From contig JAJEKV010000098.1 in NCBI GenBank assembly GCA_021234155.1, forward strand, positions 1,884,611-1,948,610: a DNA stretch of 64,000 bases, in the 5' to 3' direction. The notes under the pieces were generated by a model. It saw nothing but the letters and a program-made list of their open reading frames with translations, was not told where the DNA came from and searched no databases. The DNA is from Isoetes taiwanensis. Lineage: Eukaryota > Streptophyta > Lycopodiopsida > Isoetales > Isoetaceae. A program made the position numbers and the translations under genes. How positions within the stretch are numbered: the stretch's first letter is position 1; every line of letters begins with the position of its first letter. Positions 7,611 through 51,416 of the stretch are shown one piece after another.

Positions 7611-7825
7611 AACCAAAGACAACTTCATACTCAAATATACAACAGAAACACTAAGAGATACTAAAGATTTCATTCATGGTAGTAAAGCTTAAGCTTTTAA
7701 AACATCTTTATTCATATACAACCACCACGTATGTACACAAGGACATAGGGCTCGTCTTCTCGAGCCCATAGCACTCTAACAACTATCTACAACTATATAA
7801 CAAGGCACAGCCATCTGTAATGCCA

Positions 7826-10094: not shown

Positions 10095-10178
10095 GGCTGT
10101 TGTCACGAAGCAGAATACAACACAAAGGAACTGTGATGGTTTGCTCCGGCATGCACAGAGCCAACTTATACCCATAGC

Positions 10179-10186
10179 CATGCATG
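10179..10186 (-). promoter_or_regulatory. RY element CATGCATG of the cupin pseudogene
   Basis: The same palindromic RY (legumin-box core) element seen upstream of the intact cupin gene, at about the same distance from the start codon. In land plants RY elements bind B3-domain factors such as ABI3 and FUS3 in seed or spore maturation programmes. Function here is inferred. Confidence 0.5.
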
Positions 10187-10231
10187 CAACCCTCTCAAAT
10201 TCAGTAACTTGGTGCCGCCTTCTGACCCCCA

Positions 10232-11067
10232 CGTTCAATAAATACTTACAACAGGCCAGAGACATAGAGGGTGATTTTTACTTTGGGGAACCGGCTCGGA
10301 GTTTACTTCCCGAATTAGGGAATTGGCAGTCTCCATAAGTTCGTCCGATGAGAGAGATATGGCCGAAAGAGTGATAGGGGTCAAAGACTGCTCTACTCGG
10401 TAGCTCTTGAATATGATTCTAAAGAAAGCCATTACATTTTCCCGAGCTTATTTGTTCCTATTCAATCTTCTTTCTTATTTTGGAGGTCTTGGTATACATT
10501 ATTGCTAGGAGCGCGCGTATATAGCACGCGCGTCACGGCGTTCAACCTCAACATGCGGCCCCCCTCATCCAACTCCCCCGCCATGAAAGCGAAATTAAAT
10601 CTTGGTTTTGAGCGACCCACATGACGTTCAATGGCGAAATTTAGTAAAAGGGCATTTTAGGTGGGTTGTTTTCTCCTGAAATTATGCTGCCTCATTTTCG
10701 TTGCGCCTCGAAGCAAATCTATGACTAAACAAGAGCACACAAGCGGTGTCAGTTTCTAAAGGTGAGTGGGCGGTGGATCCCGAATGTGCATAAAGCTTCG
10801 ATTCATGATCTTTTTTGGGTTTCTCCGGTAAAATCAAGAGCACACAAGCGGGGACAATTGGATTTCTAAGGTGGTAGAAGTACGCGAGATGGATCCCGGA
10901 ATGTGCATAAGAACTTCAGTGCATTTTTCGTCCCGCTCTACATACATACCCTGGCCAGGGTCGCGATTAAGTTTTTTGCTTCTTAGGTTACTGCTGATTG
11001 TGAGGAAGGAAGTCGGTTGTAATAGAGTAAATTTCTCTACTCACGGGGATAATTCGTCTTTTGCAAG
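10232..11067. other. Non-coding stretch with a local tandem duplication
   Basis: No supported gene. From about 10731 to 10920 a unit of about 115 bp occurs twice, each with an AAGAGCACACAAGCGG start and a GGATCCCGNAATGTGCATAA part. The stretch near 10505-10545 has a short run of alternating CG/TA bases. Confidence 0.5.
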
Positions 11068-14000
11068 AAATGTGGCGTGGGAAATGGGAAAAATTGCATG
11101 AAGTTTGAAAATATACAAGGTTACGGAGGCACAAACCACCATAGTGGGAGCTTTGTTAAGGTCTACACAATGGATGCTATGCCATTTCATGAAAGGCATA
11201 AAACAAATACATTGTAGAGTTTCGATTTCTTCTCGATTACGGTTGCTTCAATGTGCTTGATGGAGGTCCTTCACATTAATTCCCATTTTGGATTATTGAG
11301 AATCCTTTATTGTTCTGGTCCGATGTGCATTTGTTTTGCATGGTTGGGTTTGACGCACCAAAGTAATAGTTTGCTCATGGCTTCTGGTCTGGTTATGAAC
11401 TTCAATATTCCTGATGAAACTTTGGACATTTCAGGGGAATGTTGGAGAATCAAGCATCATGTCTATCGTGTAGGCTTTAGTTAATGTGATTCTTATTGGA
11501 TCGTGGTGGTTCCACTTGGATGTAAGTCTAATTTTTTGTGATTTGATTGTACCGTGATTTTTGAGCAATTGTTATAACAATCCATTTTATGATTCGCTGA
11601 AGTGGTAGTATTTCCATTTTTGAGGTTTATCATTTGGAATAGAATGTAAATTGTGGAGGATGCTAACTTGGTAATTTCAGGACAACAAGACAGAGATATT
11701 CGGGCTTCTTTTTCCGTATGCAATGGAGGTACTTGCTCCATTTCTCTAAATGTTTAATATATTCTTCAATGATTTTGCAATTTAGTTAAGTAGAGAGTTT
11801 TGATGATTGAAACATTTTTAAGGTCCACTGCTCATTCCTTTTTCTGATTTGTGAGGAAACCGAGAGATGGAAATTATAAGCGATTATCCACCGGACCAAA
11901 TATATTCTATTCACAATTGGAACATGTTAAGTGGCATGGCAAAATTAAGTAGGCATGCATAGTCTATGTGCATTTAGAATTTATTTTTTAGAAATGGGAT
12001 CTCTCTATGCTATCTGAGCCCTTATATATTAGAGATTCGTTTTGATTAATAGTGGTATAAATATGTGTGCCTGATTCCACAAAATTCTTCTCCACAAATG
12101 CTTTCTTTGGGCCGGTACCTTAATGAACAAATCCACATACCATATAATAATGCATGGTTTGCAGTCCTGAGTTTATGCTAGAGTGCTACTTTCCATTGCT
12201 AACTGTAATTCACTACAAGGGATAGTCGTCCTTCAACGGCGATAGCGGCCAGCCAGCGGCGAGGTAATGGAGTCGAACATCGGCGAGCATGTTAAGTTCA
12301 TCGTATTTATCGTCGTTCAACGGCTGTTTCGCGTGGATTTCGGCGTCGTTCAACGGCGTTTATCGAGAGCTGGCGATAGCCGGTTAGCTGTCGGCGTAAT
12401 GCTGGCATGGCTGGCGAGCTGGCGATGTCAAACATTCATTTGGGCGTCGTTCAACGGCGTCTCCGCGAAGCTGACGTCGTAGCCGCGTCTGCGTGAAATG
12501 AAACATTGCCAAGGCGGCAGCACATTAATGTCAGGCAGCGCCCGATACCGTGAACACCGACCTCCAAAAGAAAGCGCCAAAGTAGCTCACTTCCATCACA
12601 CTTTCATTAGTCAATTGGCTAGGATGGATGGGGTTCTAATATCTTAGTGGGCGTGAGTGTTTCCTTCTTTTCGCCAAAACCGGCCAGTGTAACTTTGCTC
12701 TAGGGTAATTTAAGCCATTCAGACGATTTGGGGAATTCGATTTGCCATTCGGAGCCTCACGATTAAAGAGCGACAAAAGCGATCTTACGGTTTCTGGCCA
12801 GGCAGCCAGGGGCCCTTGGTTTGACAAGTTCTCGGACCGATCACGGAATCTTTTGGGCCTTCGAAGAGGGGCCTGAGCGGAGGATCCAGCGGTCGGATAG
12901 AGCCGGAGCTCGAGAGGTGGTCATTAAGCGTCACGGCCAGTGGCTACCGAGGAAGAAGTACGCCTCGGGAACTTTGGATCCAGCCTCGTCCGGACTCTCC
13001 CCTGTATGTGAGGGATCCTGCGGAGTCACGGCTTCGTTTGACTTGGGGAAGGGTGCAGCTCGGTTGCCACAGCGAAACGCCCTGCGGCCGTTCTAATACT
13101 AACCCTTTGACCTAGACCTTCTCAAAACCAGAAAATTGGGGCTGTCTTTGGAGATGAATTAGGGATCCGGTGGCAAAAATCCGGAATTTATTTTAGATTG
13201 CAATGCATTAATTCTGAATTTACAGTGTCGCCCTTTACCAAAAAGCCCCCGACTACTTGCCACATCGGAGGAGGGCGGCCCAAACTCGCTCGTCGGTTCC
13301 CCTTTGCTTCAGTATTCACCATTTCTTGCTTCGGCCCGGTCCCAGTGCAGGACCCGGGCTCGGCCCCAGCATAAACCCTTCTAGAGCTGGCAACCCACCC
13401 GGGGTTTCGTTTTGAGCCCTCTCCTTGTCCCGGTCGGCGGGACGCAGGTGACTTCGGAGTGGGGGTGTTGGCCTTTGAGCACGGACCTAAAATCCCGGGA
13501 AGCTGGTGCTGATTTTTCTTCTCGAGGCCACGGGGACCCGGTGGTGACCTCCCTCTCGGGTCAGCGATTTGGCTCGCCAATGGACTCGAAACGTCGACAT
13601 TGCCACAGGGACCAAGTTAGTGGCGAAGACCACCCAAACTCCAAGAAGCACCAAAGTAGCTCACTTCCATCACACTTCCGTAGTCAATTGGCCTAGGATG
13701 TGGATGCGGGGATCTTGTCGTGGAGGCGTGAGTGTTTCTTTCTTTTACCAAAACCGACCTTGTAACTTGCTCCCTAAGGGTAATTTCGCCATTCAGTTGA
13801 TTTGGCGAAGTCGATTTGGCATTCGAACCTCTCCGATTAGAAACGATAAAAAAGCGATTGCAGTTTCTACAGAAGCGGTAGGTATCCCGGGGGCCTTCCG
13901 TGATTTACGACAAGTTCTCCCGGACCCGATGCAGATCTTTTGGGCCTTCCCAAAGAGGGCCACAGATGGAGGATCAGCGGTGGGATAGGGAGGCCCGGGC

Positions 14001-17000: not shown

Positions 17001-20000
17001 CATCTGGCATGCTTAGTAATGCAGCCATTTTGAGGTGTCTGAGATGAATGTAAGAGGAAGCTGACGAAGGTGCTTGCGAAGAGATAGAATGAAAGGCGAT
17101 GAAGAAATTTGGATGAAGGGACCTCCTACCTCACCTACTTGCCGCGATTCGAAATTGTGGCTCCTTTTAATAACATCATCCAAAGCCGAAACATCATCAA
17201 ATTAAAGGCATTTGCAGAAGGTTGGGCGGTTTCGCGTTTCTTCCAAAACATGAAATTGAATAATAGCCAACAACCAAGAAAGAAACTTTAAATAATATAA
17301 TGAAAGAACAAGCATACAAGAAGAATCTCCTTTTAATAACATCATCAAAAGACGAAACATCATCAAAAGGCCGAAACATTATTACCAAGGGAAGTGGATG
17401 TGACAAGTTCAACACATTTTCTTTCAAAACATGAGAGGAATTGAATAATAGCCAACAACCAAAGAAAAACTTTAAAATAATATAATGAAGAACTTTCTTG
17501 TGAGAATCAAAGGAGATCCTCATTGGGAAGGTGACAAAGATATAGGGACCAAATTCTTTTTATTTATGGAGTTTGCTTTCCTTCGCGAGGGGCAACACAA
17601 GCGATAATTACAGCATTATGGGCTATGTACTATAGTTATAATAAAAATAAAGACGTCGTTTAACACAAAGGCGTGGTTATAAGCGTCGGTCAGCAGCGTT
17701 AACGACGTCGTTGAGCGGCTGATGCAGCGTCGTTGAATGGCGTCTACGTAACTGAAGCAGGGCGGCTTTCCGCCCGCCTAGTTTTGGTTCTAAGCGGCTG
17801 GGCGTTTTTCGGTAAAGCGATTTTTGGCCTTGGATCATCCCTTCTGCAGTCCTTTCAAGCTTCAAGCAAGCATCAAAGGTATTTCAATGGATCAATCAAC
17901 TCTATTTTTGAATTGGAAGCTTGTTGTTTGATAGATTTAGGGCTTCTTGTTTTCTTGTTTGTTTCAATCCATCCATTTCTATCCTCCTCTTCTTTCCATC
18001 CTTGTTTTCTTCAATCCATCTTGCCTCTTGCTTAGTATGAATCGAATCCTCCTCCTTCTTCTTCCAATCTTCTTCCAATCATTGGTTTTCCTTCCTAATC
18101 TTCAGTTCTTCCAATCTTCTATTCATTTTCTTCTTCTTCTTCTTCATCCTTTCTCATTCTATTCAATCTTTCTTTTCCTATCTCCCCTTTCTTCTTCTTC
18201 TTCTTCTTCTTCTTCTATTTCTTCTTCTTATTCCTCTTCTTTTTCCATGGAAGGGCGTCGTTGAAAGGCAAGGGCCCATTCTTCCTCTATTTTTATTACA
18301 AGAAGGGGGCGTCGTTGAAAGGCGGGGTACGCTAACTTTATATTCTTCCTTTTTTTATTTTTTATTTTTTGTTTTACATGTCAATATATAGTTCTTTTTA
18401 ATTAACAATGTAAAATAGTTTTAATGTCAATGATCTTTTTAGCGGAATGGTCTTTTTGTTTTTATTTCTTTATTTATGTAAGTTTCTAATTATTGAATGC
18501 CTTTATTTTTTTGCATGTACACTAATAACAAAATCATTAAGCTCTTGGAAATCGATTTTATTTCGAGACATTCTAGGTAAGAATTTGAGTTTGAGTAGAG
18601 ATAAAATTTTAATGTTTTATTTGGGTTAAAAAAAAACTTGGGGAGACTTGGACAAAGAGCGTAGTCGGCTCATGGTGGGAAGACTAGGTGTTCGAGTCCA
18701 AGCTCACGTTCTCTGTAATTTTATTGATTAATGTATTTAGTTTAGAAAAATTGGGGAGACTTGGACAAGGGGCATGGTCGGCTCATGTGAGTGGAGAAGA
18801 CTAGGTGTTCGGAATTATCCGTTATCTTTATATTTTATTGATTAATGTAATTTAGTTTAGAAAAATTGGGAGACTTGGACAAGGCATGGTGAGTCGGCTC
18901 CGCCTTGAGTGGAGAGATTTAATTATTCAGAGTTAAGCTCCTGCTCTCTGTTATTTTTTATTAGTATATCCAATAAATAGAAATCTTTCTGAGGATTGGA
19001 CAAAGTGAGGGGTTTTGAGAAAAAAATTGCATTATTGATTTTCGGGTTTCTAGTTAAGAATGTTGTTTTTAAAATGTTAGGGATGTCAAAGAAACAACGA
19101 TGTAAGGTGTGGTTAAGAGCAAGAAAAATTTCAATAGTTGGTTTTAAAAAAATTAAAGGGAAACTAACTCTCTTAAGAAAGTAGGTAAGATTCATAATGA
19201 AGGTTTGAAAAGTCACAAAGCAAGATTAATGGATAGAATTGGTTTGGAGAATTATGGCCAGTGTGAAGACACAAATGGTTAGTGAGATTAGATAGCGTGG
19301 TCATAAATGAGATGTAATACTTCTTGAGAAGTCAGCCAGGAGATGCAGTCCAGCGTGTAAAACCACTTTTGTCGGACGTAATGAAAGGAAGTGCCAAATT
19401 GAGTTAGCACAAAATATGGCTGAGTCAGAAGAAATGTTGACTTCTCTCCTTGACACATGTAAAACCAATGATTGGAAACCCCATGGATGGCCCGAACATG
19501 TTTGAAGCATTAGGTCAGAAGCTTAAAGTTCAATCACCAGGGCTGAGTATCAGGAATGGGTAGCTTTCATGGAATTCCTCAAAGAAGCGGCGAGTGCAGA
19601 TCCACAAGAACATCATTGCGGATCTCAATGCCGCGTCGGTTGGAGAATAAAATGCTTTGCATCGGGGAAGCTCTAGTGGAGCAGGACCTAGCAAGGCCCA
19701 CTTTTCTTTGGAGAATTTGTTGATCCCATACCCGTAGAGGCCGTGGATGTGATACGCCTTATTGAGGAGAAACCAACACATCGCACGTATCAAATCAAGA
19801 TCAACGGAACACAACACTTCAAGATGATGAGCTATCTGGAGTGGATGGGTTTTCAAAGGGCAAAAGATAGGGCGTAGACGTATGAGATGGCTCAAAGATA
19901 CATACGCTTCAAGAGCCCGCATCCTGCTTTGGCTACATCCATTGGACTTGCATATGAAGTTGCTAGCTCTAGTGGGGATACCATAGGGCCAATGGTGATT

Positions 20001-23000
20001 CTACCTTTCATGAATGGAGAGACACTTGCACACTTGTTTGACTATTTACCTAATAACTTGTCACGTTTTAGAAGATGGTCAAATGCAATTGCTAGAGCGC
20101 CAAGAAGAAATGACAAACACATAGGCTGAACTTAGGAGCAAAATCACGAGTTGTATGTCGATATGTTCGAGGAGATAGCTCTTGCCCTAGCGAGAAGGTG
20201 TCGTTGAGATCCACAAAGGCCACTTCACTCACACAAAAAGCTTAATTGCAAGAGAGTCAAATTACATTTTGATGATGAGTACCAAAATGTGTGGGTGGCC
20301 ATTGGTGATTGGGACAATGCAATTCATTTTCGCCAAAGAGCGTGTCGTCCCTTGTTGAAGTGTCGGTACTTACTTTACGGATGGACAAGCAAAATATCCA
20401 TGGTTAGAGGAAGCGGTGTTTGAGAAATCAAAGGATGATGATCGTGTATGGGGACACGAAATTCATGATGTCTATGCATTGGGATATATTTATGAGATGC
20501 TTACGGATTTAAATTTCAAGCTTTCACGACGAATGGAGTGGTTTAATAATAACAACAATGCCCAATGGATTAATCCAACCCATATGTACCAACGGCGTCT
20601 TGACAAGTTGGAGGAGCAAAAAACAAGAATGATATGCCTACGTGAAGGCGTATTCTCATCCACGACCCAAAGCTTACGAAGTTGTTGAAGCCTTACAAAG
20701 TGTTGGAATATCTTCTACCATGGTTGTGAGACAAAGACGACACATGAAGTGCATGGATGCCTTGGAGATGTCAAAATTGTTGTTGTCACAACTCAAAGAA
20801 TGAATGCAATATTGTATATCTTGCCATGTTTAAGAGTATTAATTTTTTTAATTGTCTAATAACCAAATATATAAAGACACTTTTAATTATTCAAATCCCA
20901 ATGTTTTGTAATGAACTTCCCATGTTGCTAACATTTGTTGCTTTCCTACTATGTTATCCATCGCACTCCATATAAATAACTTGCAAGTTTTTGCACATGT
21001 CCGGCAACCATGGGATGCGGCCGCGATAGCATATCTATTGTTCACAACTTTACTTCTCGCGTGGCTTGGTAGCCTTCTTGTGACCCTAAACGCAAAGGCC
21101 TTTAAGAGAAGTTGGTCGTTCGGGTTTAGCTCGCCACCACCGCCACCTCCACCATTGTCTTGATTTGGTATGGATTTTTTTTCTAGGATAAAATGTAAGT
21201 TAACCATTTATTTTAACGTTCTAATGTTTTTAAATGTAGCGTGTAAATGCGGTTCGTCCTTCTTTTCCTATGCATAATGTTAGTAAAATTAGTGGTTATG
21301 GGCGGATCTTCTTCTCACCACCCGAGAAGGGCGGAAAAGGACCTGCATCGGCGGGAAGACGAAGGCGGGGAACTCAAGAGATATCAACGAGGGCGATAGC
21401 CACAAGATAGGTGGAATGCCTTGCAATTGGGATGTCGCCCAGAAATGGAGATTCTTGCCGGGCTATTGAACAAAGTAGGCGGAGTGCGGCCCATGACCCT
21501 CCACGTCATAGCTCATACACTCCTTGATTCAATCTTGAAGCCCTTCCGACACGAGGAGATTGAACCCCCACGAAGAAACGCACCGTCGTTCACGTCGGAG
21601 TGGGCCTAATTCCTCTTCAAGCTCTGTTAAAAGATGTTGCACCACCGCACCACCTCCCGTCGGCATGTCTTTGAATGTGGTGAGTTCATCTTGAATTATG
21701 CCCTTTTTTGTTCACTAACACATATTCATATGTTAGTCGTATGTTGAGTGTAATAACAAGAAGTTCTTGCGCCACAACACTGCGGATGGCGGCGATTTTT
21801 GGAAGATGGCTAATAGTGTCACAAATAGCATTTGCCAAAACGTCCATAAGGGTGAATGGAACTCGGGAGCCTATGATGAGGAAAAAGAGGATCAAAGGCG
21901 ATTTTAGAAGCGAGAATATCCAGAGCTCAAGTCGGGAGAGATCTCATGGAGGAGGTTTGTTCAAAGCAGGGTAAACATGTTAAAGCCACCGGGTATTAGG
22001 CTTTTTAAGTTCTTCATTATAACCTCATTGTACTCATATTTTATTTATATTTTGCAGAGCTAATCAGAAGAAGCAGCTGAAAGCTCTTGCCAAAGCTACA
22101 GGAGTCCCGATAGAGGAAGTGGCACAGCCTATCTGGTTGACTCATGAGGCATTTCAAGTACATCATCTCTCCCATGAGTCGTATAATTAGATGACGCCAT
22201 GTGGACTAAGTCCTTGTATTGCCACTACAAGAGGATAGCCATTTTTCATCACTTTAATATCACCTAAATTTTCAAAAAGTACCAAATGATATAAATAATG
22301 ATATTCAAGGTATGGTAACACTACCAATGACAAAATTCTAGCATCTATAGTATCATCAGCATCATCATAAATATGGTCAACAATTATATCAGTGCTAATT
22401 AATGATAGTATATGTGTTACTAATAGCATCATGATTAATATCACACATTGCATTAACATTACCATCATTTATTACTCGAATGATATTAATGACAATATAA
22501 GTGTTGTACTTATGCCAGTTACAATATCACCCATAGCTTCATCTATAGTGTCATATATTGACAATATTATATCAGTGCTAGCATATGATGCTATATGTGT
22601 TGATAATAGCATCATGGATAATATTACGACTTGCATCACTCTTACTATCAAAGTTACCATCATTTATTACTCAAATGATATTAATGAAAATATAAGTGTT
22701 ATATCTTATGCCAATTACAGTATCACCCATAGCTTCATCTATAGTTTCACATGTTGACAATATTATATTAGTGCTAGCATATGGCGCTATATGTGTTGAT
22801 AATAGCATCATAGATAATATCACGACTTGCATCACTCTTACTATCAATGCTCGTTGTACTTTTAATAATAGTAGTACAAGTGTTAATGATCATGAGAATT
22901 CTAATATCATTCATAATGGCACTACCTTTTTCACACTCGCATACACAAAGTACACAAAATGATAATATTAGAGGAAGAAAGAAAAAAATTCTATTGGAGT

Positions 23001-32000: not shown

Positions 32001-35000
32001 GAGTGCTTGCCGGGAAAGGCTGCCTCGGGGAAGCTTTTGGGGCTCGCCTCACGGGTTCGGACTCTCCCCTCTAATGAGGAGGCCTTGCAAGGTCCTCCGC
32101 CTTGTTTGACTTGGGCAAGTGTGCCCAGCTTCATAAATTCTTAACAACATGCTGCCCTGACCGTTCTAATGCAAACTCTTTGATATAAACCTTATCCAAA
32201 ATTTTTGAAAGTTGGCACTGTATGTTGGCGATGACTTAGGAAGCTAGCTGACAAAAAATCAGAATTTAAGTCCGTACTATGCATTAATTACGAATTTACG
32301 AATGTCTTTACTCTTGCAAAAAGCGACCCTTGACTTCCTAGCGCCAATAACGGAGGAGTGTGTCCAAAGTCCATTCCGTCCAGTTCCCCTTGCTTGGCGT
32401 TCTCAATCTGCATGTGATCGCCACGTCCCAAGTGCAAAGACCAAAACTTCGGCACCCAAAACACAAACCACGCTTTGAACACGGCAACTCATAGGGTTTA
32501 CGTTTGGAGGCTCTATCCTTGTCGGTTTGACTAGGACCTTGGCGCCATGTCTTGGCGTAAAGAGGGGGTGTTGGCCTTGAGCATGGACCCTAAAACCACC
32601 CCGAAGCGGCTTGCCCCAAAAGTCCTCTCCTAAGGCCCGGGCGACGGACGGGCAACTTCCCTCTCCCAACCGCGGATCTATCTCTGCCAATGGAATCGAA
32701 ACGTCGACATTGCCCTAGGGACCAAGTTTTGTGGCCGAAGCCCACCCCTTCTCGAAGCGTAAAACTATCTCATGTGCAACACACTCGTAGTCAATTGGCC
32801 TAGGAGGTGGGCTGGCGAATCTTTTACAATGTAGGGCGTAAGTGTTTCTTTCTTTTTACAAAACTGGCCCGGTAACTTGGTCCTTAGGGTAATTTTGGCA
32901 TTCCTGGACGATGTGGCGAAGTCGGATCGCCATTTTGAGCCTCCGAATGTCCGAACGACAAAACACTTTGGTTTCTACATTGTTGCCCCGCAGACGCGGT
33001 TTGTTTGATATTCTCCCGGACGGATGTTGGATTTTTGGACCTTCTGGGACCGTTTCCTTGAACAAAGGATTCAACGGTCGGATCTTTAGAACCGAGATCC
33101 GAGTGTGGTCTTTAGCCACACGCCCCCCGGGCGAGCTTTTGAGAAAGGTCACGGAAGCTTTTGGGGCTCGCCTCCGGGGTTCGGACTCTCCCCTCTAATG
33201 AGAGGCCTTGCAAGGTCCTGGCCTTGTTTGACTTGGGCAAGTACCGCCCGCCCTGGAAGCAGTAAGAACAGCCTGCATCGTTCTAATGCAAACTCTTTGA
33301 TCTAAACCTTATCCAAAATTTTGAAAGTTGGCCGATGTTGGCGTCGACTTAGGAAGTCACGACAAAAAATCAGAATTTAAGTCCGCACTATGCATTAATT
33401 ACTTAATTTACTGAATGTCTTGCTATCGCAAAAAGTGGGCCTTGACTTCTAAGCGCCACAAATAAAGGAATACAGGTCCAAACTCCATTCCGCATCGGAT
33501 TCCGCTTGCTTCGCGTTCTCAATCGCATGTGATCGCCACGCCCCAAGTGCAAAAGACCAAAACTTCGGACCTCCAAAACGCAAAACCATCAAGCTGGGAA
33601 CACCGGCAACTCATTAGGGTTTACGTTTCAGGCTCTATCCTTGTCGGTTCGACCAGGACCTTTGGGCGCGGTCTTGACGTGAGGGGGGTGTTGACGCCGA
33701 GCACGGACCCTAAAACCACCCTAAGCGGCTTTTGCCCCAAAAGTCCTCTCCGGTTCCCGGCGTTTTCCGCAACTTTCCTCTCGGGAATCAGTGATTCGGC
33801 TCGCCAATGGACTCGAACGCCGACATTCCCCCTAGGGACCAAGTTTGTGTGGCTGCTTCTCACCGCTTTTGGAAGAAGCGCCAAACTATCTTATGTCCAA
33901 CATACTGCAATAGTCAATTGGCCCAGGAGGTGGCCGTTGAATACCGCAATGTAGGGCTGTAAGTGTGTCGCTTTTTGCAAAACCCCGTTGTAACTTAGTC
34001 CATAGGGTAATTTTGGCATTCCAAAAGATAAGCGACGTCGTTTCATAATTTTTTTTAGCCGTTTTTTTTTTTTTCCCAAAAAAAATAGTGACGCTATAAA
34101 CGACGCTTACGTGGCGCTGGCGACAATAGCGTGGCGCGATCATGCCACGCCTTTAAAACCGCAAAGCTTTCGCCGCGTCGGGATATTCTATGGCGCCGTT
34201 TAAATCGACGCCATGTCGACGTCGGCAGGACACTTTTGCGTTGTGTTCGCATGTCGGCAAACCCGCAAATAGGCCAGCGCCGCGCTTCAAAGATTTTTAG
34301 TCGCCGTTCAACGGCGATCATGTCGACGCGGATCTCATCAATGGCGTGCGACCTTCGGCATGTAAACAAGTAGGCTTGGTTTTTCTTGGATGCCACCCGC
34401 CATAACTTTTGGTTTGAATACGCTCAACTTTGACGTCCGGTAATGTGTTTTGATTCTTTGAACTGCCCGGCAAATTAGCGGCGATTTGATATGGCATGGG
34501 CCAATCGGATCGTCAGCCCCGAGAACGTCGTTGAGCGAAAGTCAAAGCGGTGCATTTCGTTGTTGAACGAGAGATGTGGATGGCCCATGTTTTCGACGAC
34601 GACATTGAAATATCGACGCGCTAGCGCCGTTGGATTTTTTTCCGACTATCCCTTGTAGTGATACATGATTAATCCCCCGTCCATAGTACTTGCAACTCTT
34701 CTATAAGTGGGGCTAGATACACATCCATATTTCTTACTTGATATTTACCTATATACAACACAAAAATATGAGGATGAAGTAAAATAAAAGAAAAAAAAGA
34801 AAAAGAAATAGCAAATAAAAGACAAGTTTTGTTCAATAAGTGTTAGGCATAAGATGCCCCGCCTTTGTTGCTAGCCAAGGAGGGATATTGTAATTCACCA
34901 AATTTCCATTGAATTACACTATGACTTGATGACCTTTTGACCAAAAAGGACAAACATGTCATCCAAGCCGATGGCAAGGCGATGTTTCTTGGTTCTTCTT

Positions 35001-38000
35001 TAAATACCGCCATTTATCCTCAATGTGCTTCATTGCTTTTGTTGAATTGCCTATACCGAGGACGAAATAGTGCCATCCGGTGCAGCGGTGTTTTGAATGA
35101 AATTCCACAAGTGCACTTAGCGATGGGCAACGGAAGATCCTTTTGTAACCTTGGTATGATTGGCATGTGACGCAAAGACCTTTCTAACCCTTGCCGTTCT
35201 CATCTTAGTATCGCACCTTGGTTCATTGCATTTTGGGCACATATTCAAGTTCTCGTATTGATTGGCGGTAAAGAACACAATCTTGATTCAACATGCATAT
35301 ATGGAGTTATATTCCAAACCTAGTTCATCCAAGCATGCAATTGACCACTCTTCTTCTTTTGGAAGGCAATGACCTTCGTAATATGTCCCCTAATAAGCTG
35401 CAAATCAACATATATTCAATAAACTACATATTCCATTGAAAACCAAATAATATTTTTTGTTACCTAAATAGTCTGAAACAAGAGCTTTGTTGCTCCATCC
35501 GGCATTGTTATGTTGTAGATTTACTATTAGTAGACATGTCGCTAGACGCGAGAACTTAGAATTTGGATACAATGGCTTGCATGCTTCTATGTTTAACGAC
35601 GTTGCCATCCCTAATATTTCCTCATTGTCTATTGTTGGATTGGCTTGGTTTTCATTTCCATCAAAGGGCGCATCATTTGTTGGAAAGAACTGCTGAATTA
35701 CGTCTAGTAAACCAGGCTCTGGAGCAAAATCTCCAGGCAAAGCAGGCTCTGGAGCAAAATCTCCAGGCAAAGCATTGGCTTCCTGTTATATAGGTACATC
35801 ACACGCATTCATAAAATGTAAGGCATTTTTAATAGAAATTTGCAATAAACAAGCAATACTACACTTCATCAATGCTTACTTTATTTGCATTCGTGCTCGG
35901 AGTGGGTGCATCCGCACACCACCCATATGATAACTTGTGTTGCTCCCGAATGTCAAATGTTAGTTTCTTACTGCCAGAACACTTTGTACACCAACATAGT
36001 GCCTTTTGATCAAAAATCTTATCGTCTAGATCTTTTTCATGAGAAGATGCGGATGATGAACTCCACCTATGCAACAAAATGAAATTTAGTATTTTTCTTA
36101 CTAGCAAAGATATTTCACAACTAATATGACTTTATGTAATAATGTAAGGGCTTGAATTGTATAGGAATTTTCGACCTTTAAAGGTGCCTAACCTTGCATC
36201 CTTCGACCTTCGAACAAAAAGACAAAAAAAAAGAAAAAGAAAATAAGTGCCTAACCTTGCATCCCTGGACCTATGAAAAAAAAAATCTCAATGAAAAAAA
36301 AAGGGGAGGGGGGACCAAGCAGCAGAATTGAATGGAACTATAAAGGAAAAAAATGAAAAGCCTCGTGAAAAAAGAAACCCAGCAAAAACTAGGCATGGAA
36401 AAGAAGCAAAGACTAGGGCATGAAAAAAAAAACTAAAGCAGGATCGGGAAGAAAATCGAAGCAGGTTTGAAGGAGGGGAATCGAAGCAGGATCGAAGGAA
36501 GAAAATCGAAGCAGAATCGATTGAATGAAATGAAAAGTATCAGATGCATCAAAAGATATTGATATTCAGAATCGAATGCTATTCAGAAATTGATATTCAG
36601 AATCGAATGCTGACGAAAATAATCGATTGAAGCAGCAAAAGATTGAAGCAATGCTTGCATACCTTCTTCTAGGGCGATGTCGACGTCTTAGTACACGTCT
36701 TCGTCTTCCTGTTTCTGATGACATGGAGCTCGATTCCGAAGGTTTAGATCCATCTCTAGCCATGGCCGAATCTATTGAGCTCATGGGAGTTGCAATGAAG
36801 AAGTTTCGATCTTTCACCTTTTATTTGAAATTACAGGTTGAATGCAGGTGAACGTTTGGTGCAGGCAAAATTTAAGGCAGAATTGTTGAATGCAGGAAGA
36901 CGTTTGGTGCAGGCAAGATTTAAGGCTAAGTTTTAGGCTGTATTTTGGGATATCCAAATGCATCAACGGCTTCCAAATGCAAATGAAATGACCTTATTTA
37001 AGCCCTGTTGTGCATTCGATTCAGCAGTTGGTTGCAATGGATGATGCAAGAAGAAGATCCAAGGGCAAGGAATCTGCAATGGGTTCTAGTAGCAAGCAAC
37101 GTAGATCTCTTTCGAGATCAAGCAATGCATCTATGTCCATTGATCGTTCCATTACAAACGAGGCCCTAACCCAATCCCAGATTTTGGAGCAGATTGCATC
37201 ACTTACACAGTTACTTGCTCCAGAAACAAGGGACAGAGCCAATGAGATAATGGGACGTGGTAGTCATGGCTGCAAGGAAACTAGGAAAAGTGGAGCAAGC
37301 AAGAGGAAGTTAAGTGATGCATCAACTTCTAGACGCAGGAGAATAGATCAAGACGAGCCTGTTGAAGATGCTGATGAAGAGATCGAGTGTGATAAGAGTT
37401 CAAGATCAGTCGTGATGAAAAAACTCCCAAAATCCAAGGTTCTGTCCTCTTTTACTTCTATGTTTACATGTTTTTTCCAGTAATTTCAGATTATTGTTAC
37501 TTAGAATATATGATTTATATAGCCCTCTCCCTTTCGATTCTTGGCCACTTAGGACTGCCAATATACATGGGTGCATTTGCTTTTGTTGGACTGGCTTTTT
37601 TTGTGCTATCTTTTGTTATTTTGGAGCGGATACATCTCATTCCAGATATATCTGAGTTTAGCAAAAGAGGACAGCAAAGAGTTTCCCTGTTATGGACAGC
37701 AAAAGAGGAGAGCAAAGTGCAGTAATGATTGCGACATCAGGGCAGCAAAAGGGCATGAATGCACTTGCTTTGTTGCTACCATCAGGTCTTGCCAGCTTTT
37801 ATCTAGTACGTACTATGTTCTATTTCCTGCTCTTTAAAACCCTTTTGTTTCAAATCATTTCCAATCCAGTTGTCTGAAGGCTCAAAAGAACTCTGTCAAT
37901 TGTCAGACTATCTTCCCCCTTATCTGCAAGATGCACCGAGCAGTCACGATCTGCAAGTGCATTCTCATGGAATGCAGGAGAATTTTCTTTATTGGGTAGA

Positions 38001-41000
38001 GCATAAGCAAGATCCTGCATATGCGCATTACATCTGGCTTCCTTCCAGGGATAACATATCTCACTTGCATCTTGCCGTGTGGGACACTCAAAGTAATTGG
38101 GAGCAACATCGTGCCGCTATATGATCCCTGTTTTCTATAGTCTGAGAGAACTCTGCTATAGTACTCCTATTATGATGCACATTAGTTGCTGTTAACATTT
38201 TAAAATTTGCAGAGATCCCGTTATCCTCCTCATCCACATCCCACTCAGATTCATAGGTGCACCAATTACCTCCAATACGCATTCAAGTTACAAGATATTG
38301 CAGCGAATGTACTGTCTAACACTATTTCTACCACTGCCTGATCCAATGGCACTGTCACTTGTGCTTCTTCCAGCACTAGTGTTGTTGCTTTCTGCTTTCT
38401 GATGATCCTTGAGAACAGTGGCCTACCCAGAAATGTGTTGCTGCCGAAACAGTAGCCTATTATTTGATATGAATCACAGCAGAAATGGTGCTCCAGATAG
38501 GTATGTTTTCAGCAACTTGATGGTTGCTATATTAAGTATCTCTTCTGGAAATCAGAAACTTCCTGTTGCAAACTTTGAATTGGAGGTGGAAGAAAGATGG
38601 ATCAAAGCAAAAAAGTTTTCCTTAGATGTTTCTATAAACTTGCAGCTGCAAACTTCGAATTGCAGTGTTCTTGTATATTTGATTTGATTTGTATTACTTG
38701 TCTTAGACTTGTGTTTATGGAGGTGGCCAAATACACATGGACAAGGAAGGTAAAAAGTTTATGGATGCGGCAAAAGAATACATGAAGTACCATTGCCACG
38801 ATCTCCATCATAAATGGCCAAATGTGAAGCGTAGCCATAAGGACCGTGTAATTGCTGAATTAAAGGAGCACTTTGGTCCTGGTTTTTCTAGACGGCATGT
38901 GCTAAAAAGGCTCGCTCGGAAATGGAACCAATACAGGTGACTTTTGCTTTATAGTTTGTAAATAATTTATGAACTAAGTAAGAAAAGCTTGAAATTATAA
39001 TTTCGCTTAATATTTTATGAATTTTGTTATCCTTATTCAAGAATTAAGTAAGTAGAATTTGAGTTTACAGAACTGGTTTGAGAAACGAAGTAAGAGAAGA
39101 TCCTAGGATGACTAAGCCTGATGAGGTAAGTCAAGACGCATGGGATTTATTTGTTGAGGATAGTAAAAAGGTGTATGAACGAAATATTCGAGCTGCTGCG
39201 GCAAGAGAATCAAAGCAAGTAACAGGATCGGGTGGGGATGACTATATCAAGACCCAATTTGTAAGTTAATTTTATTTGGCATTTAGAATGTTTTTGTTCT
39301 TGATTAGTTCTTACTAGCTTTAAATGACCATTTAGTTCATGCACTATTGCGGCTATCCGACGGACATCGAACTTGATAATATAAAGAAGGCAGGTGGATT
39401 CCAAAAGTGGATTAAAAATCAAGAGACCTTTGGTAAACAGGTATGAACTTTTATTTCGATATTACATTTAAATTATACATGTTTAAAAATAACTTTGTTA
39501 TTTGCATAGTTTAATGCAAGAGATTTCGTGGGCAAGGGTGCCACAAAGCCAATCTTCAAACCCAAAAGCGTAGAATCAGATCACATGAACGTAGACGCAC
39601 GCATTGAAGATGAAATGGACGTAGTTGGATTACATGATGAGGTATATTATCACTAATCTTTTTTATTTCAAGAATTAGATAAGAACTAGCTAACCATGGT
39701 CTTTTATTTTTAAACATGTAGGAAGAGGATAAAACTGATAATACTGGATCCTCTCATAGTGATGCTAGCTCCTCAACTGAGTCAGCAAGTACGTCAGGGA
39801 GCTCCAGTAGCGAAAATGAGTCCGAAGAATCACCTACACCACCTAGGAAAAAGAAAACATGTAATGACATTGCAAAAGAAATTTATTTGCGACGTGGGGA
39901 GTCTGAGCCATCAGCGGCATCTATGTGAAAAAAACCTATTTAAGTTGATGTATTAGAACTTTTATATGTTTTTTATTTCGAGTGTTCGTTTGGAATATTT
40001 GAAATCTTAATATAATATTTTGCTTGAGCAATGATTTTTGGGTTTTATAAATGGAAAGCTTTTTTACTTATTATTTTTACTTGAAATATAACATTATAAA
40101 ATTAATCAATACCTTAATGAATAACAATGCAAATCATGTACAAAATTTTATTAGAGACGAAATCCTTGTATGGTATTAAAAGTGGTGGAAAATGTGAGAC
40201 TATATTTGATACAACTATGGTCTAACTTCTAACAATACATGATATTATATTTGACGTTAATAATGATGCAACTTCAACCTCTATCTGATATTGTACGTGG
40301 CATTGTAAATGATGCTACATTTGATATTAATCATGTTAGAAAGGACGATAGAAAGAATGACGCTCGTGTTGACATTATGAATGATTTGCTTATAGCAATA
40401 TAGGTGATGCTATAGTTAACACCATTATAGCGATCGTGATGACATTATGAATGATCTAATTATAGCAATAGTTGTGATTCTATGGTTGACAATATTATAG
40501 CACATGTGGTTGCATTATTATAGCGCATGTGTTGACATTATGAATGATTTTATTATAGCAATACATGTGATCCTACAGCTGACAATATTATACCAAAAAT
40601 ACATGATACTATATGTGATGCAAAAACTGATACTATTATGCCACCGCAATGCCATAAAAAATGATAGTACAACTGTTACTATTGGTGATGTTATATAGAT
40701 GACGCGATATCATCAACAGCTACCGTCATTTATTATGCCAAAAACTAAAAAATTGAAATGTGCAATTTTAAGCAAATAAATGATGGAACTGGTGGCTTAG
40801 ATTGCTTATTCTCTTATAGTGTGCATTGTAGTGGGGAGAGTCGTATAATTAGATGACGCCATGTGGACTAAGTCCTTGTATTGCATTGTAGTGTTTGAAG
40901 GCCAACATATTATCAAAGAAAGGGGAAGCTAGAACAAAGGCAGCGCTGGACGCGAGGTACGACGAAGCAAGTGGCAGCTATAGTGCCAATAAGACTGGGT

Positions 41001-42966
41001 CTGGCGGTTATGGCTTTCTGGATAAGCTATTTGTATAAATTTGGTTTATAATGTAGGTTCTCGAGTTGAACACTAACATTAGTTTTGGTGCTCATTCTCA
41101 ATAGAAGTCATTTGCTGGTCGCCCCGCTGCTAAAGATGAACGCGAAAGGGCCTTCAAAAAGGCAAATATGCGGCCATCCAAAGACGCTAACCGGCGTGAA
41201 TCGGGGAAGTGTGTATCATTCATTAGATAATTAATTGTGACTACAATGAACTAATTGTTGCGATACAATATAATGCAGGTAAATGAAGACGAAGGCGCCA
41301 ATGAAGAAGAAGAAGAAGAAGAGAGCAACAACTAAAGACTCAATATATTTTGTAATGTGCAAATTACATTGTGAAATATATTAATTGAATTCAATCTAAA
41401 TTTTTTATGCTTTGTTCTTATTATTTGTGATTTTTTTTTTTTTTTTTTTTTTTTTTGTTATGTTAATTTTATGCTCGATTCTATTTTTTTATTCTTAGAT
41501 TTATTAAACATTTAATTACATATTAAATAATAATGCTTATCTACCATGATACTGAATACTAATATAATTTAATCAATAATTGTTTCTATTTTTCGAATTT
41601 TTAAATTTTTAAATTTTTATTCTCGATTTATTTTGTTCATATTTAATATTTATTAATACTATTAATATTATTGTTAATATTAATATTATTTAATATTAAT
41701 AAATATTACTAAATATTTATTTATATTAAATATTTGTTAATATTGAATATGAATATTAACTGTCCGTTAAATAATATTGAATAATATTAAATAAATATTT
41801 TTTTTTTTCAAATTCCTTTGATCGTCGTTTAAGGGCGTTGATGGCGTGGTTTGCCACGCCGTACGCCACCTCATCATTCGCCTCGACGTCGGTAGCGGCC
41901 GCCATGCGTCGCCAAACGTCGTTGAACGGCGTGGTGGCGTGGGCGCCACGCCAGCCAGAGCAGTGGCGACCACGCCGCCAACGCCGCTGAACGATGTTAC
42001 ACACGCGGCCGCCCGCGTCGGCCGCTTCGCTACCGGCAACGCCATCGCCGGCGCCGCGACACGCGACATGATGACGTGTACTTTTCGTCGTTTAACGACG
42101 TTGCGGCTCATCGACCACGCCACCGGCGGCCCGGCGCCAATCCATCGGGTAAAGGCGGTGCAGCGTGGGCGACCCACGATAATGCGAACGACGTTGAATG
42201 ACGTCAGGTCGTCGCTTTAAGACGACGCGGTTGCGACGCGTATAGCGACGCATAAAGGTCGTTTATCGACGCTCAGACGTCGAAATAGACGTCGTTTATC
42301 GACGCTTTGACGTCGATCATCGACGTGCAAACGACGTCTGGACGTCGTAATAGACGTCGTAACAGGGCTTTAATTTTGTAGTGATTGGCACCCTATTTGC
42401 AGGTTGAAAAGGTGCTCTGTCATTGGATTTGGCTTGGGGCTGCTAATCCTTTTTGTGAGTTTCATATTTATGAGGTGAGTGAATATTAAAGCCATTGTTT
42501 TGTTTCTGGTGATTTATGTTGTTGCTTGGCGATCTTCATTTATGATTTACTTTCCTCTCTAGAATAGTTTTGCATTTTTTCCTCCATATCTGTTTGAGTG
42601 CTTGCTGGTGGTGGTCTCAAGTACTCATGCAACGGATCTAATGGATCTAATGTTAACAAACATTGATTTAGTCAGTATATAGCTTATATGATCTAGATAT
42701 ATGTCGTGTATACCTTTACAATTTTATCATAGGCAGCATTTAATCGTACTAAAATGTAAGCTGGATCGTACACAAGAAGTTGAGAAATCATAATAACAAA
42801 AGGGTTCCCATTATGTCAATATTACTGAATGACATTATTTCCTTTTTTCAATTATATTGTTTGGTGGTAGTTTGGCAGTTTTTGTGCAAATGGCAGCGCT
42901 TATTATAAGCAGACAATGGAGCATCACATTGTTGATTCGCAAAACCGGGATGTGCAGTTTTATTGA
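11068..42966 (+). CDS. Putative host gene (3' part) split by the CACTA nest
   Basis: Short exon-like blocks with good splice sites join in phase 0. They are 11068-11160 (weakest), 11435-11521 or from 11474, 11681-11728 (encodes DNKTEIFGLLFPYAME), 42403-42474 (VEKVLCHWIWLGAANPFCEF and HIYE) and 42871-42966 (FGSFCANGSAYYKQ to a TGA stop). The donor at 11729 and the acceptor at 42402 belong to one intron that would be about 0.5 kb long without the 30 kb transposon. The exons from 11474, 11681, 42403 and 42871 would give about 95 C-terminal residues rich in Trp, His and aromatics. I do not recognise the family. The 5' exons are uncertain, and if the exon begins at 11435 an in-frame TAG lies at 11471-11473. 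It could instead be an old pseudogene or chance frames, though phase-0 agreement across both flanks of the insertion is unlikely by chance. Confidence 0.45.
12211..12500 (+). repeat. Left (type A) subterminal region of outer element
   Basis: After CACTACAAGGGATAGTCG the sequence is GC-rich and holds several copies of GTCGTTCAACGGC words near 12313, 12346 and 12444, in direct and degenerate forms. In En/Spm elements, clustered subterminal motifs bind the element-encoded TNPA-type protein. The full motif here, CGYCGTTNAACGRCG, is itself a palindrome. Confidence 0.75.
12564..14332 (+). repeat. Satellite family, 1.6 units, diverged copies
   Basis: Two successive segments align to each other with a period of about 1097 bp (landmarks ATGCATTAATT near 13204 and 14300, GTCAATTGGC near 12611 and 13683). 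They also align in the same orientation to the 1.13 kb array at 27668-34030. Shared words are CCAATGGACTCGAAACGTCG, GAGTGTTTCTTTC and GACTCTCC. The open frames inside are not conserved between units, so it is non-coding satellite DNA. Confidence 0.85.
14325..14405. repeat. CTTCAACATTATT short tandem repeat
   Basis: Four copies of TTATGCTTCAACATTATTGG with small variations occur directly after the satellite block. They form a short AT-rich tandem repeat of about 21-24 bp. Confidence 0.8.
14440..14930. repeat. Degenerate pyrimidine-rich microsatellite
   Basis: About 490 bp built from words such as CTTGCTACTTGATCTT and CCTTGTTCCTTGAT in irregular order. The strand bias to T and C is strong, and the apparent Leu/Ser/Phe-rich frames are artefacts of the repeat. 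Confidence 0.85.
14935..15375 (+). pseudogene. Fragmented coding-like stretch in outer element
   Basis: Pieces in all three plus frames read like protein, for example GMDELWDHFLEWRG, PPKELTMKLINFVEA, NPPPYRAEMLHQLRPLL and ADVALLGQYYLKLLDF, with frame changes between them. I do not recognise the family. It may be a 5' piece of the transposon gene whose later pieces lie at 19.3-22.2 kb. Function is unknown and the frame is broken. Confidence 0.3.
15376..16084. other. Non-coding stretch with short repeats
   Basis: No gene is supported. Between 15640 and 15785 a phrase of about 55 bp containing GTGTATACAACC and CATAAAGGTCTATGA repeats about three times. The rest is AT-rich. Confidence 0.4.
16085..17690. 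repeat. Pair of direct repeats, about 330 bp
   Basis: The block from about 16085 to 16410 (CATCATCAAAAGGCGAAACA through GGGCTATGTACTATAG and GTCGTTTAACACAAAGGCG) recurs at about 17345-17690. A partial third copy lies at 17165-17330. The repeats bracket 16.4-17.15 kb, which holds the small minus-strand gene described separately. It could be a tandem duplication or a terminal-repeat structure. No target duplication was established. Confidence 0.7.
16596..17028 (-). CDS. Hypothetical protein, about 140 aa, one frameshift
   Basis: Two overlapping minus frames form one likely product. The first starts at 17028 (MAALLSMPDVDTPSPKCSF) and runs to TLYLRGKGT. A shift near 16790-16756 joins it to the second frame (VAKAPKKAAENGG through DDQSDLLK), which ends at 16596. 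The protein would be basic with a helical C-terminal half. No signal peptide or membrane segment is visible and I recognise no domain. It lies between direct repeats inside the outer CACTA element, so it is probably transposon cargo or a captured fragment, not a stable host gene. Confidence 0.3.
17690..18320 (+). repeat. Module shared, inverted, with 26630-27245
   Basis: It starts with GC-rich words such as GACGTCGTTGAGCGGC. The middle contains GGATCAATCAACTC and TAGATTTAGGGCTTCTTGTT. A long CTTCTTCTT/TCCTCC tract follows, and the module ends GGGCGTCGTTGAAAGGC. The reverse complement of 26630-27245 follows the same order. The module therefore belongs to the shared transposon family, and its opposite orientation supports the innermost element being inserted backwards relative to the outer one. 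Confidence 0.75.
18636..18975 (+). repeat. SINE-like unit with tRNA-like boxes, three tandem copies
   Basis: A unit of about 115 bp repeats at about 18636, 18750 and 18866. Each copy starts GGGAGACTTGGACAA, has a TAGTCGGCTCATGG-like stretch resembling a pol III A box, and ends with a T-rich tail containing TTTATTGATTAATGTA. The first copy also has GTGTTCGAGTCC, close to a B box (GGTTCGANTCC), which decays in copies two and three. No cloverleaf could be folded, so it is at best a tRNA-derived SINE relic. Confidence 0.45.
22176..22222 (+). repeat. Left copy of 47 bp duplicated flank of middle CACTA
   Basis: The 47 bases ending GTCCTTGTATTGC recur at 40838-40884. They are not part of the transposon. 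Removing 22223-40821 and one TGC restores two adjacent copies of a unit of about 60 bp, each ending ATTGTAGTG. The middle element therefore inserted into the first copy of a pre-existing tandem duplication. Confidence 0.8.
22405..22870. repeat. AT-rich subterminal repeats, left end of middle CACTA
   Basis: A unit of about 180-198 bp repeats about 2.5 times, with TATATGTGTTGATAATAGC landmarks near 22412, 22592 and 22790 and TATCACCCATAGCTTCATCT between them. The region has short ATAGCATCATRNNTAATAT words on both strands, as expected of a subterminal binding region. Confidence 0.75.
25585..26000 (-). repeat. Type B subterminal region of innermost element
   Basis: GC-rich, with repeated GGCGTCG, CGTCGTT and GAGCGGC words. 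The first 40 bp match the reverse complement of the end at 42383 (GCCCTGTT, then GTCTATTACG). The apparent Arg-rich frames on both strands are compositional artefacts. Confidence 0.75.
26001..26629. other. AT-rich stretch of innermost element
   Basis: No coding sequence. A block of about 220 bp around 26240-26400 recurs at about 26480-26620 (GCATATTGAAAATTAAAT then TACGG, and TGCAAAACAAAAATTCAATG), a local tandem duplication. Short AT repeats such as TAAGCTAAATACATTAATCA occur near 26210. Confidence 0.5.
26630..27245 (-). repeat. Inverted copy of the 17.7-18.3 kb module
   Basis: Read on the minus strand it has the GC-rich motif cluster (GTCGTTTAACGGCGTCG near 27174), then AAGCTTCATAAGGTATGTGC, GGATCAACCAACTCG, TAGATTTAGGGCTTTTTGT, and a C/T tract of CTTCTTCC words ending in ACGCCGTT. 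The order and spacing match 17690-18320. Confidence 0.75.
27668..34030 (+). repeat. 1.13 kb satellite array, about 5.6 units
   Basis: The landmark CTATGCATTAATT occurs near 27728, 28868, 30003, 31143, 32277 and 33388, giving periods of about 1140, 1135, 1140, 1134 and 1111 bp. Each unit contains CCAAACTCCATTCCGTC, GACCAAAACTTCGG, CCTATCCTTGTCGG-like words, ACATTGCCCTAGGGACCAAG, GTCAATTGGCC, ACGACAAAACACTTTGG, CTCTAATGAGGAGGCC and TTGACTTGGGCAAGT. No frame is conserved across units, so the many short frames are not genes. Units differ mainly by short indels at GC-rich spots. The array orientation is the same as at 12.6-14.3 kb although the host element is reversed. Confidence 0.95.
34031..34660 (-). 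repeat. Type A subterminal region of innermost element
   Basis: GC-rich after a T/A homopolymer block, with CGCCGTTCAACGGCG-like and GTCGACG words and the terminal GACTATCCCTTGTAGTG. The apparent ORFs on both strands are compositional. Confidence 0.75.
35714..35773 (-). repeat. 30 bp tandem duplication in TNP2 remnant
   Basis: CTCTGGAGCAAAATCTCCAG plus ten bases occurs twice in tandem, which duplicates ALPGDFAPEP in the TNP2-like frame. It keeps the frame open and is a small replication-slippage event. Confidence 0.8.
36108..37036. other. Divergent intergenic region of middle CACTA
   Basis: About 0.9 kb between the start regions of the minus-strand TNP2 remnant and the plus-strand Ptta-type gene. 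It is A-rich, with repeats of AAATCGAAGCAGG (36440-36520), CAGAATCGAATGCT (36565-36610) and ACGTTTGGTGCAGGCAA (36850-36915). It probably contains the promoters of both genes; no clear TATA box was picked. Confidence 0.5.
37037..39928 (+). CDS. Ptta/TNP1-like CACTA protein, multi-exon
   Basis: Supported exons are 37037-37438 (MDDARRRSKGKESAMGSS, basic and Ser-rich), 38707-38936 (YGGGQIHMDKEGKKFMDAAK; HKWPNVKRSHKDRVIAEL), 39071-39260 (VSQDAWDLFVEDSKKVYERN), 39336-39440, 39510-39641 and 39722-39928 (Ser/Glu-rich tail, PPRKKKT, TGA stop). From 38707 on, phases agree and each junction has GT/AG. The block of W, basic helix and VLKRLARKW followed by WDLFVE resembles the plant transposase Ptta/En/Spm domain. 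Exons between 37439 and 38706 are unclear; frames such as SEGSKELCQLSDYLPPYLQD (from 37873) may be one. Such proteins bind subterminal motifs of their element in the nucleus. The 3' exons look undamaged, unlike the TNP2 partner. Confidence 0.65.
40190..40745. repeat. AT-rich subterminal repeats, right end of middle CACTA
   Basis: Irregular repeats of words like GATGCTATAG, ATTATAGC, TGTTGACATTATGAATGATTT (in parts) and ACATGATACTATAT. Composition and word use resemble the left subterminal block at 22.4-22.9 kb. Confidence 0.65.
40838..40884 (+). repeat. Right copy of 47 bp duplicated flank
   Basis: Identical in register to 22176-22222. Both copies are followed by TGC/ATTGTAGTG once the transposon is removed, so it marks a tandem duplication older than the middle CACTA insertion. 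Confidence 0.8.
41400..41820. other. AT-rich linker with a 29 bp T run
   Basis: A poly(T) run lies at about 41432-41456, followed by simple TATTAATATTAAT-type sequence to 41800. Nothing coding is seen. It separates the last exon-like block of the outer element from its GC-rich B end. Confidence 0.6.
41821..42383 (+). repeat. Type B subterminal region of outer element
   Basis: GC-rich, with copies of the palindromic motif: CGTCGTTGAACGGCG (near 41916), CGTCGTTTAACGACG (near 42086) and related words. Nearer the end, tandem GACGTCGTTTATCGACGCT-like words form short inverted repeats. It ends in TTGTAGTG. Confidence 0.75.
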
Positions 42967-48623: not shown

Positions 48624-48900
48624 TAAAGATTTCATTCAAAAGCAGAGACAACTTCCGAACAGCTGATAAAACCAGGTAGTAAAGCTCAAGCTTCATTCAA
48701 AAGCAGAGACAACTTCCGAACAGCTGACAAAACCAGGTAGTAAAGCTCAAGCTTTTAAAGAACATCTTTATTCATATACAACCACCACGTATGTACAAGG
48801 ACATAGGGCTCGACTAAAGATTTCATTCAAAAGCAGAGACAACTTCCGAACAGCTGACAAAACCAGGTAGTAAAGCTTAAGCTTTTAAAGAACATCTTTA
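48624..48900. repeat. Three tandem-like copies near cupin 3' end
   Basis: The phrase TTCATTCAAAAGCAGAGACA through AACCAGGTAGTAAAGCT and AAGCTT occurs three times, beginning near 48632, 48692 and 48818. The last two include ACATCTTTATTCATA and CAACCACCACGTATGTACA. The decayed copy has a single version near 7660-7740, so the expansion happened after the segmental duplication or was lost there. Confidence 0.8.
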
Positions 48901-48902
48901 TT
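48897..48902 (-). terminator. Likely polyadenylation signal of cupin gene
   Basis: AATAAA on the minus strand, about 126 bases after the stop codon of the cupin gene. The same signal is repeated in the duplicated unit near 48770. Confidence 0.45.
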
Positions 48903-49027
48903 CATACACAACCACCACGTATGTACAAGGACATGGGGCTCGTCTTCTCGAGCCCATAACACTACAACAACTATCTACAACTATATCACTTCACAACTAT
49001 ATAACAAGGCACAGCCATCTGTAATGC

Positions 49028-51333: not shown

Positions 51334-51402
51334 AGCTGTTGATCACTAGAGCAGAATACAACACAAGGGAACTGGTGGTTTGCTCCGGCATGCAGAGCCA
51401 GC

Positions 51403-51408
51403 TTTATA
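51403..51408 (-). promoter_or_regulatory. TATA box of cupin gene
   Basis: TATAAA on the minus strand, 70 bases before the start codon, in GGGTATAAAGC. The pseudogene has TATAAG at the same place. Confidence 0.6.
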
Positions 51409-51416
51409 CCCATAGC

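Follow-up and report, generated by a model that had tools for sequence, protein, structure and literature searches.

Three nested CACTA-type elements in Isoetes taiwanensis, the outermost and innermost of one family

The locus and its flanks

The window, i.e., the whole stretch of 64,000 bases from Isoetes taiwanensis that was analysed, contains three CACTA-type elements inserted one within another. Their limits are as follows:

12211-42383, plus strand: outer CACTA-type element, type A end on the left and type B end on the right, recognised by CACTA termini, ATT/ATT triplets and end alignment
12211-22222 and 40825-42383: the outer element's own sequence
22223-40821, minus strand: middle CACTA element, with TGC/TGC triplets, ends identical at 14 of 18 positions and a tnp2 gene on the minus strand
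22223-25584 and 34664-40821: the middle element's own sequence
25585-34660, minus strand: innermost CACTA-type element, type B end on the left and type A end on the right, i.e., with polarity reversed relative to the outer element

The nest is flanked on either side by cupin matches (Cupin_1, 33.8 and 28.6 bits; cut-off 22). Direct repeats surround it, 7678-10234 with 48866-51472 (88%), which hold the cupin matches, and 4482-5764 with 46809-48134 (75%); these flanking repeats are a tandem gene duplication. A LINE occupies 54256-57015 (open frame of 639 codons, RVT_1 at 89.6 bits, Exo_endo_phos_2), and a separate fragment at 62058-62528 matches zf-RVT. An Rfam search returned no matches.

Boundaries of the three elements

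All six ends start with CACTA; five of them read CACTACAA and the right end of the middle element reads CACTATAA. The outer element begins at 12211 with CACTACAAGGGATAGTCG, preceded by ATT, and ends at 42383 with TTTTGTAGTG, followed by ATT. For the middle element the corresponding boundaries are TGC before CACTACAAGAGGATAG at 22223 and CTTATAGTG before TGC, with the last base at 40821, and for the innermost element GTA before CACTACAAAAATTGCC at 25585 and CCCTTGTAGTG before ATA, with the last base at 34660. The initial annotation had described three nested elements at 12211-42383 with the target duplications ATT, TGC and GTA/ATA, and both its coordinates and its triplets proved exact. The 3-bp target duplication of the CACTA superfamily is present at each level, complete (3/3) in the outer and middle elements and with one mismatch (2/3) in the innermost.

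Among the nine possible pairings of a left with a right triplet, two agree at 3/3 (outer-outer and middle-middle), two at 2/3 (inner-inner and outer-left with inner-right), one at 1/3 (inner-left with outer-right) and four at no position. A full match is expected by chance about once in 64 for each pairing, so the triplets alone are modest evidence.

Relationship of the outer and innermost elements

The ends of these two elements are:

12211-12567, plus strand: outer element, type A end, matching the inner A end exactly over 18 bp and carrying four CGTCGTTNAACGGCG-like subterminal sites
41810-42383, plus strand: type B end of the outer element, recognised by alignment with the inner B end and by site positions
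25585-26000, minus strand: type B end of the innermost element, in alignment with its outer counterpart (local score 75, z 17.1)
34030-34660, minus strand: type A end of the innermost element, with 18 bp identical to 12211-12228

Alignment of the four ends, a check named together with the proposal that the outer and innermost elements form one family, showed that ends of the same type resemble each other. The two B ends align over about 217 bp (largest shuffle score 34) and the two A ends over exactly 18 bp with a score of 36 (z 6.5, largest shuffle score 31), whereas the four A-B pairs reach z values of 0.4 to 3.3, all z scores being based on 200 dinucleotide shuffles per pair. The typing of the outer element as A left/B right and of the innermost as B left/A right holds, and homologous ends in matching polarity are present in both. 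A and B ends have 8 exact bp (CACTACAA) and 10 of 18 ungapped identities in common, in the outer and innermost elements alike, compared with terminal inverted repeats of about 10 bp or more in the CACTA superfamily; the occurrence of the same A/B pair in two separate elements suggests that the pairing of A with B is real. The likeness of the A ends stops at 18 bp, and their subterminal regions are dissimilar past that point.

A 15-base site, CGTCGTTNAACGGCG, was found with up to two mismatches in 26 matches at 19 places, against 0.10 expected, and all 19 places fall within outer or innermost sequence (20,647 of the 64,000 bases; about 5e-10 if places are independent), both the 0.10 and the 5e-10 being flattering figures for a site picked after viewing these very ends. 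The sounder point is its absence, at the same tolerance of two mismatches and across the 64,000-base window, from the middle element and the flanks. These sites, chosen post hoc, supply the outer and innermost elements with subterminal repeats of 10-20 bp. The CpG observed/expected ratio is 1.54-1.84 in the element ends (12211-12567, 25585-26000, 34040-34660 and 41810-42383) and 0.64 and 0.52 in the flanks.

Past the terminus the two ends of the middle element align with each other no better than shuffles (z 0.6), and with the A ends they give z values of -0.7 to 3.4. Their agreement at 14 of 18 positions is equalled by that between the left end of the middle element and the outer B end, so that they are no more alike than other end pairs here; on the same ground, the notion of the B end as the exception among the ends was dropped. 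By eye, the A end at 12211 and the middle left end at 22223 resemble each other if a gap of one base is allowed: CACTACAAG[A]GGATAG.

In addition to the ends, the following interior features were located:

17860-18560, plus strand: module common to both elements, outer copy, inverted in the innermost element
26290-27030, minus strand: inner copy of the module, in inverted alignment to the outer copy
19300-22187 (approximate limits), plus strand: one or more coding regions of the outer element, broken

The module scores 144 in inverted and 18 in direct alignment. BLAST gave three inverted pieces, 17867-17963 with 27021-26924 (82% identity over 100 columns), 18453-18532 with 26389-26310 (74%) and 18720-18756 with 26217-26182. 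Its position ahead of the coding region suggests that it may act as promoter or leader. Ten coding pieces of the outer element searched in Pfam gave weak matches below the cut-off and no tnp2, and six-frame pieces of the middle element found no counterpart in the outer element or the flanks by tblastn at E 0.01, in a run made without a positive control. No tnp2 was recognised in the innermost element by a Pfam scan covering two reading frames of its array.

With ends, site and module in agreement, the proposal of one family with opposite end polarity is well supported. The largest part common to the two elements is a tandem array of 1.13-kb units:

12568-14331, plus strand: outer copy of the array, direct relative to the inner array
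27667-34021, plus strand: inner array of about 5.6 copies

Two outer segments compared with one inner copy score 234 and 246 in direct and 22 and 25 in reverse orientation; compared in reverse with the inner array as a whole, they score 29 and 38. The array is direct, unlike the inverted ends and module, and its orientation relative to the ends is therefore opposite in the two members. The initial annotation had placed the elements in opposite orientation with an inverted common internal module, which is correct for the ends and the module, but it missed the direct array; the interiors are not collinear and the elements are not mirror images. The array also begins and ends at different points of the 1.13-kb unit in the two elements. 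Identity is 71% between the two outer segments, 79-87% among five inner segments and 59-66% between outer and inner. An exact 25-mer of the array had no match in viral_contigs.

From these comparisons the array would have been flipped, exchanged or captured twice. Accordingly, a refinement of the family relationship has to be weighed, in which the innermost element is a composite, with the B end and module of the outer family joined to the array and A end of another relative, or in which the array was captured independently or flipped later. The conflicting orientations, the different array edges, the unlike A subterminal regions past 18 bp and the lower identity between outer and inner arrays than within either all speak for it, whereas no exact CACTACAA was found between module and array (in an exact search only) and part of the low array similarity could be sequence error. 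We regard this refinement as a serious possibility, if somewhat short of an even chance. More tentatively still, the two elements may represent a CACTA family that is polar, its dissimilar A and B ends having 8 bp in common, and that carries a 1.13-kb satellite array whose orientation relative to the ends varies among members; if true, the array would be repeatedly captured or would flip inside the element, and these transposons would serve as carriers of a long satellite.

The target site of the middle element

Evidence for the middle level that is independent of the triplets lies in a perfect duplication at its target:

22176-22222, plus strand: first copy of a 56-bp perfect duplication, broken after TGC by the middle element, with the rest at 40825-40833
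40838-40893, plus strand: second, intact copy of the 56-bp duplication, which has a single TGC and forms an internal empty site

The 47-base stretch that precedes the middle element (22176-22222) is repeated exactly at 40838-40884. When the left flank was joined by script to the right flank past its TGC, the first 56 bases were identical to 40838-40893, after which one copy continues with GGGA and the other with TTTG; the four bases GGGA separate the two units. The second copy, with its single TGC and no element, is an internal empty site, and it fixes both breakpoints of the middle element together with the 3-bp duplication. The TGC duplication claimed for this level was borne out and gained an empty site; the 56-bp duplication at the target had escaped notice. 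An alternative limit, in which the middle element would end at 40837 and have a 47-bp target repeat, was rejected: the nine bases past the right TGC equal those past the TGC of the intact copy, as the 3-bp duplication explains. Read on the minus strand from its right edge, the duplicated stretch (22176-22222 with 40825-40837; 40838-40893) gives CACTACAAT, probably by chance.

It can be asked whether the 56-bp duplication is older than the middle element or arose when a break was repaired, at the time of its insertion or later. The two copies are identical although the surrounding elements look decayed, GGGA stands between the units, and CACTA elements in wheat were shown to duplicate genes via repair of insertion breaks, according to PMC4290129. 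A simple earlier tandem duplication is one step cheaper, and we consider the repair origin rather unlikely.

The tnp2 gene of the middle element

The coding features of the middle element are:

34672-34842, minus strand: tnp2 piece upstream of the innermost insert, matching Transposase_21 at profile 79-104 with 19.3 bits (E 0.0007), short of the cut-off of 28.6 bits
25215-25584, minus strand: tnp2 continuation downstream of the innermost insert, 32.8 bits in the joined reading and no match alone
36992-39925, plus strand: second gene, in open exon-like pieces, while the tnp2 gene is broken

The minus-strand pieces to the right of 34664 and to the left of 25584 form a single tnp2 gene when read together, in keeping with the claim that TNP2 resumes across the insert. 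Alone, the upstream piece reaches 19.3-19.8 bits (profile 79-104 or 86-104). Joined across the junction 25584/34664, which carries a stop and a frame change over which the query was assembled by hand, it scores 32.8 bits with 120 letters (profile 86-143), above the cut-off; with 62 letters the score is 27.0 bits, slightly short of the cut-off, and the best stretch extends to profile position 140. Wrong joins, with one control per kind, gave 17.6 bits (X-padded), 18.1 bits (hand-scrambled continuation) and 17.3 bits (another hand-typed continuation). A 40-letter downstream piece alone had no Pfam match at E 0.1, and a further downstream piece past the insert showed no tnp2 at E 10. The join is good without being perfect, and it is through these hand-joined pieces that the middle element possesses the tnp2 transposase of the CACTA superfamily.

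The pieces of the second gene that were tried gave no Pfam match above the cut-off, and one exon-like piece found nothing in a PDB search. By its position it resembles a TNP1/TNPA-type gene.

The junction also bears on whether like ends should be paired with like, giving an A...A element at 12211-34660 and a B...B element at 25585-42383. The two A ends do form perfect 18-bp inverted repeats, and the outer-left/inner-right triplets ATT/ATA agree at 2/3, equal to the inner-inner pair. However, such units would overlap, which is impossible by simple insertion; the inner-left/outer-right triplets agree at 1/3 only, the outer and middle pairs at 3/3, and tnp2 resumes across 25584/34664. We rejected this pairing as very improbable on the overlap, the triplets and the tnp2 junction.

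Sequence quality of the array

The four full inner copies of the array were aligned, the two partial copies being excluded; of the 1190 columns, 435 are variable. Variable columns make up 0.54 of those at consensus CpG and 0.06 of those more than 20 bp away from one, and the longest invariant run spans 37 columns, compared with a mean of 15.6 after shuffling. Between the copies (28751-33275), the differences are clustered in garbled blocks rich in CG and the types of substitution are near-random, a pattern not shared by the host repeats. Four array pairs have transition/transversion ratios of 0.83-1.07; the ratio is 0.85 for the outer array segments, 0.63 for the B ends and 1.00 for the module, against 1.89 for another outer repeat pair, 2.0 for a repeat of the middle element and 1.95-6.0 for four pairs of host repeats. 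When two of the four array pairs were each compared with the cupin pair, Fisher tests gave 2e-5 and 7e-4. Ordinary CpG decay produces more transitions, and greater divergence or misalignment lowers the ratio; because of the latter, a low ratio is no proof of error. Consensus error in CG-rich, perhaps methylated DNA is plausible. In this assembly, divergence may be overestimated where element DNA is rich in CG, and the sequence should not serve to date either the divergence or the gene decay of these elements.

That the nest or its junctions are themselves an assembly artefact is scarcely credible: the clustered array differences and their low transition/transversion ratios relative to host repeats would favour it, but the junctions carry exact CACTA ends and triplets, the LINE frame in the flank is open for 639 codons, and an internal empty site is not expected from an artefact.

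Order of insertions and proposed mechanism

The nest has three levels, its outer and innermost elements are kin, and the order of insertion is outer, then middle, then innermost into the tnp2 gene of the middle element. This order, proposed in the initial annotation, is supported by the triplets, the internal empty site and the tnp2 reading across the junction. We explain the nest by three successive cut-and-paste insertions of CACTA (En/Spm-type) elements, with a probability of roughly 0.9; the case is carried by the internal empty site and the alignment of the B ends.

The tnp2-type transposase of CACTA elements acts at the CACTA ends and leaves 3-bp duplications, and the subterminal repeats of En/Spm are bound by a second protein, TNPA. 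This mechanism fits the anatomy of the nest. In the proposed sequence of events, a polar element of the A...B type without a recognised tnp2 would have inserted at ATT between the tandem cupin genes. A different CACTA element with tnp2 would then have entered at TGC in one copy of the short duplication inside the outer element, and a second member of the outer element's family would have inserted, reversed, at GTA into the tnp2 gene of the middle element. A tnp2-type transposase would have cut at the CACTA ends, a partner protein would bind the CGTCGTTNAACGGCG sites, and the outer and innermost elements may have been mobilised by a transposase supplied elsewhere. The tnp2-type transposase with 3-bp duplications and TNPA at subterminal repeats are summarised as background in two reports (PMC2613891, PMC8978399).

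At this locus three insertions can be put in order, the proof coming from an internal empty site, and one CACTA family is seen to have been active both before and after another.

Comparison with known CACTA elements

The nest is a well-preserved example of an ordinary process, of a known kind; a partial literature search found no account of this particular nest, and we make no claim that it is unpublished. Nested insertions are common in large plant genomes such as wheat, and the nested clusters of wheat chromosome 3B, as described in PMC4290129, likewise hold elements inside older elements, CACTA included. Our nest does not differ from these in principle; it has one CACTA family at both the outermost and the innermost levels.

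The middle element resembles the CACTA superfamily in its tnp2. For the soybean CACTA (En/Spm) element Tgmt*, CACTA ends, a 3-bp target duplication and repeated subterminal motifs unequal at the two ends are likewise described (PMC2613891). Tgmt* has near-identical 13-bp terminal repeats with three mismatches, according to the same report, whereas the outer and innermost elements have 8 exact bp and no recognised tnp2. Terminal repeats of 145-158 bp are given for bean pvCACTA1 in PMC4938662. Next to these examples, the A/B ends lie at the lower limit of length.

For tandem arrays inside CACTA elements there is precedent in the Jozin-type elements of Chenopodium quinoa, which contain a 171-bp satellite (PMC8978399), and Jozin appears as a satellite source in a review table (PMC9659126). 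As in the elements described here, Jozin carries a long tandem array near one end, its 171-bp monomers lying near the 3' end in all elements that its authors analysed (PMC8978399). The nest adds a further case of such arrays, in contrast to Jozin with units of 1.13 kb and with opposite orientations relative to the ends in its two members.
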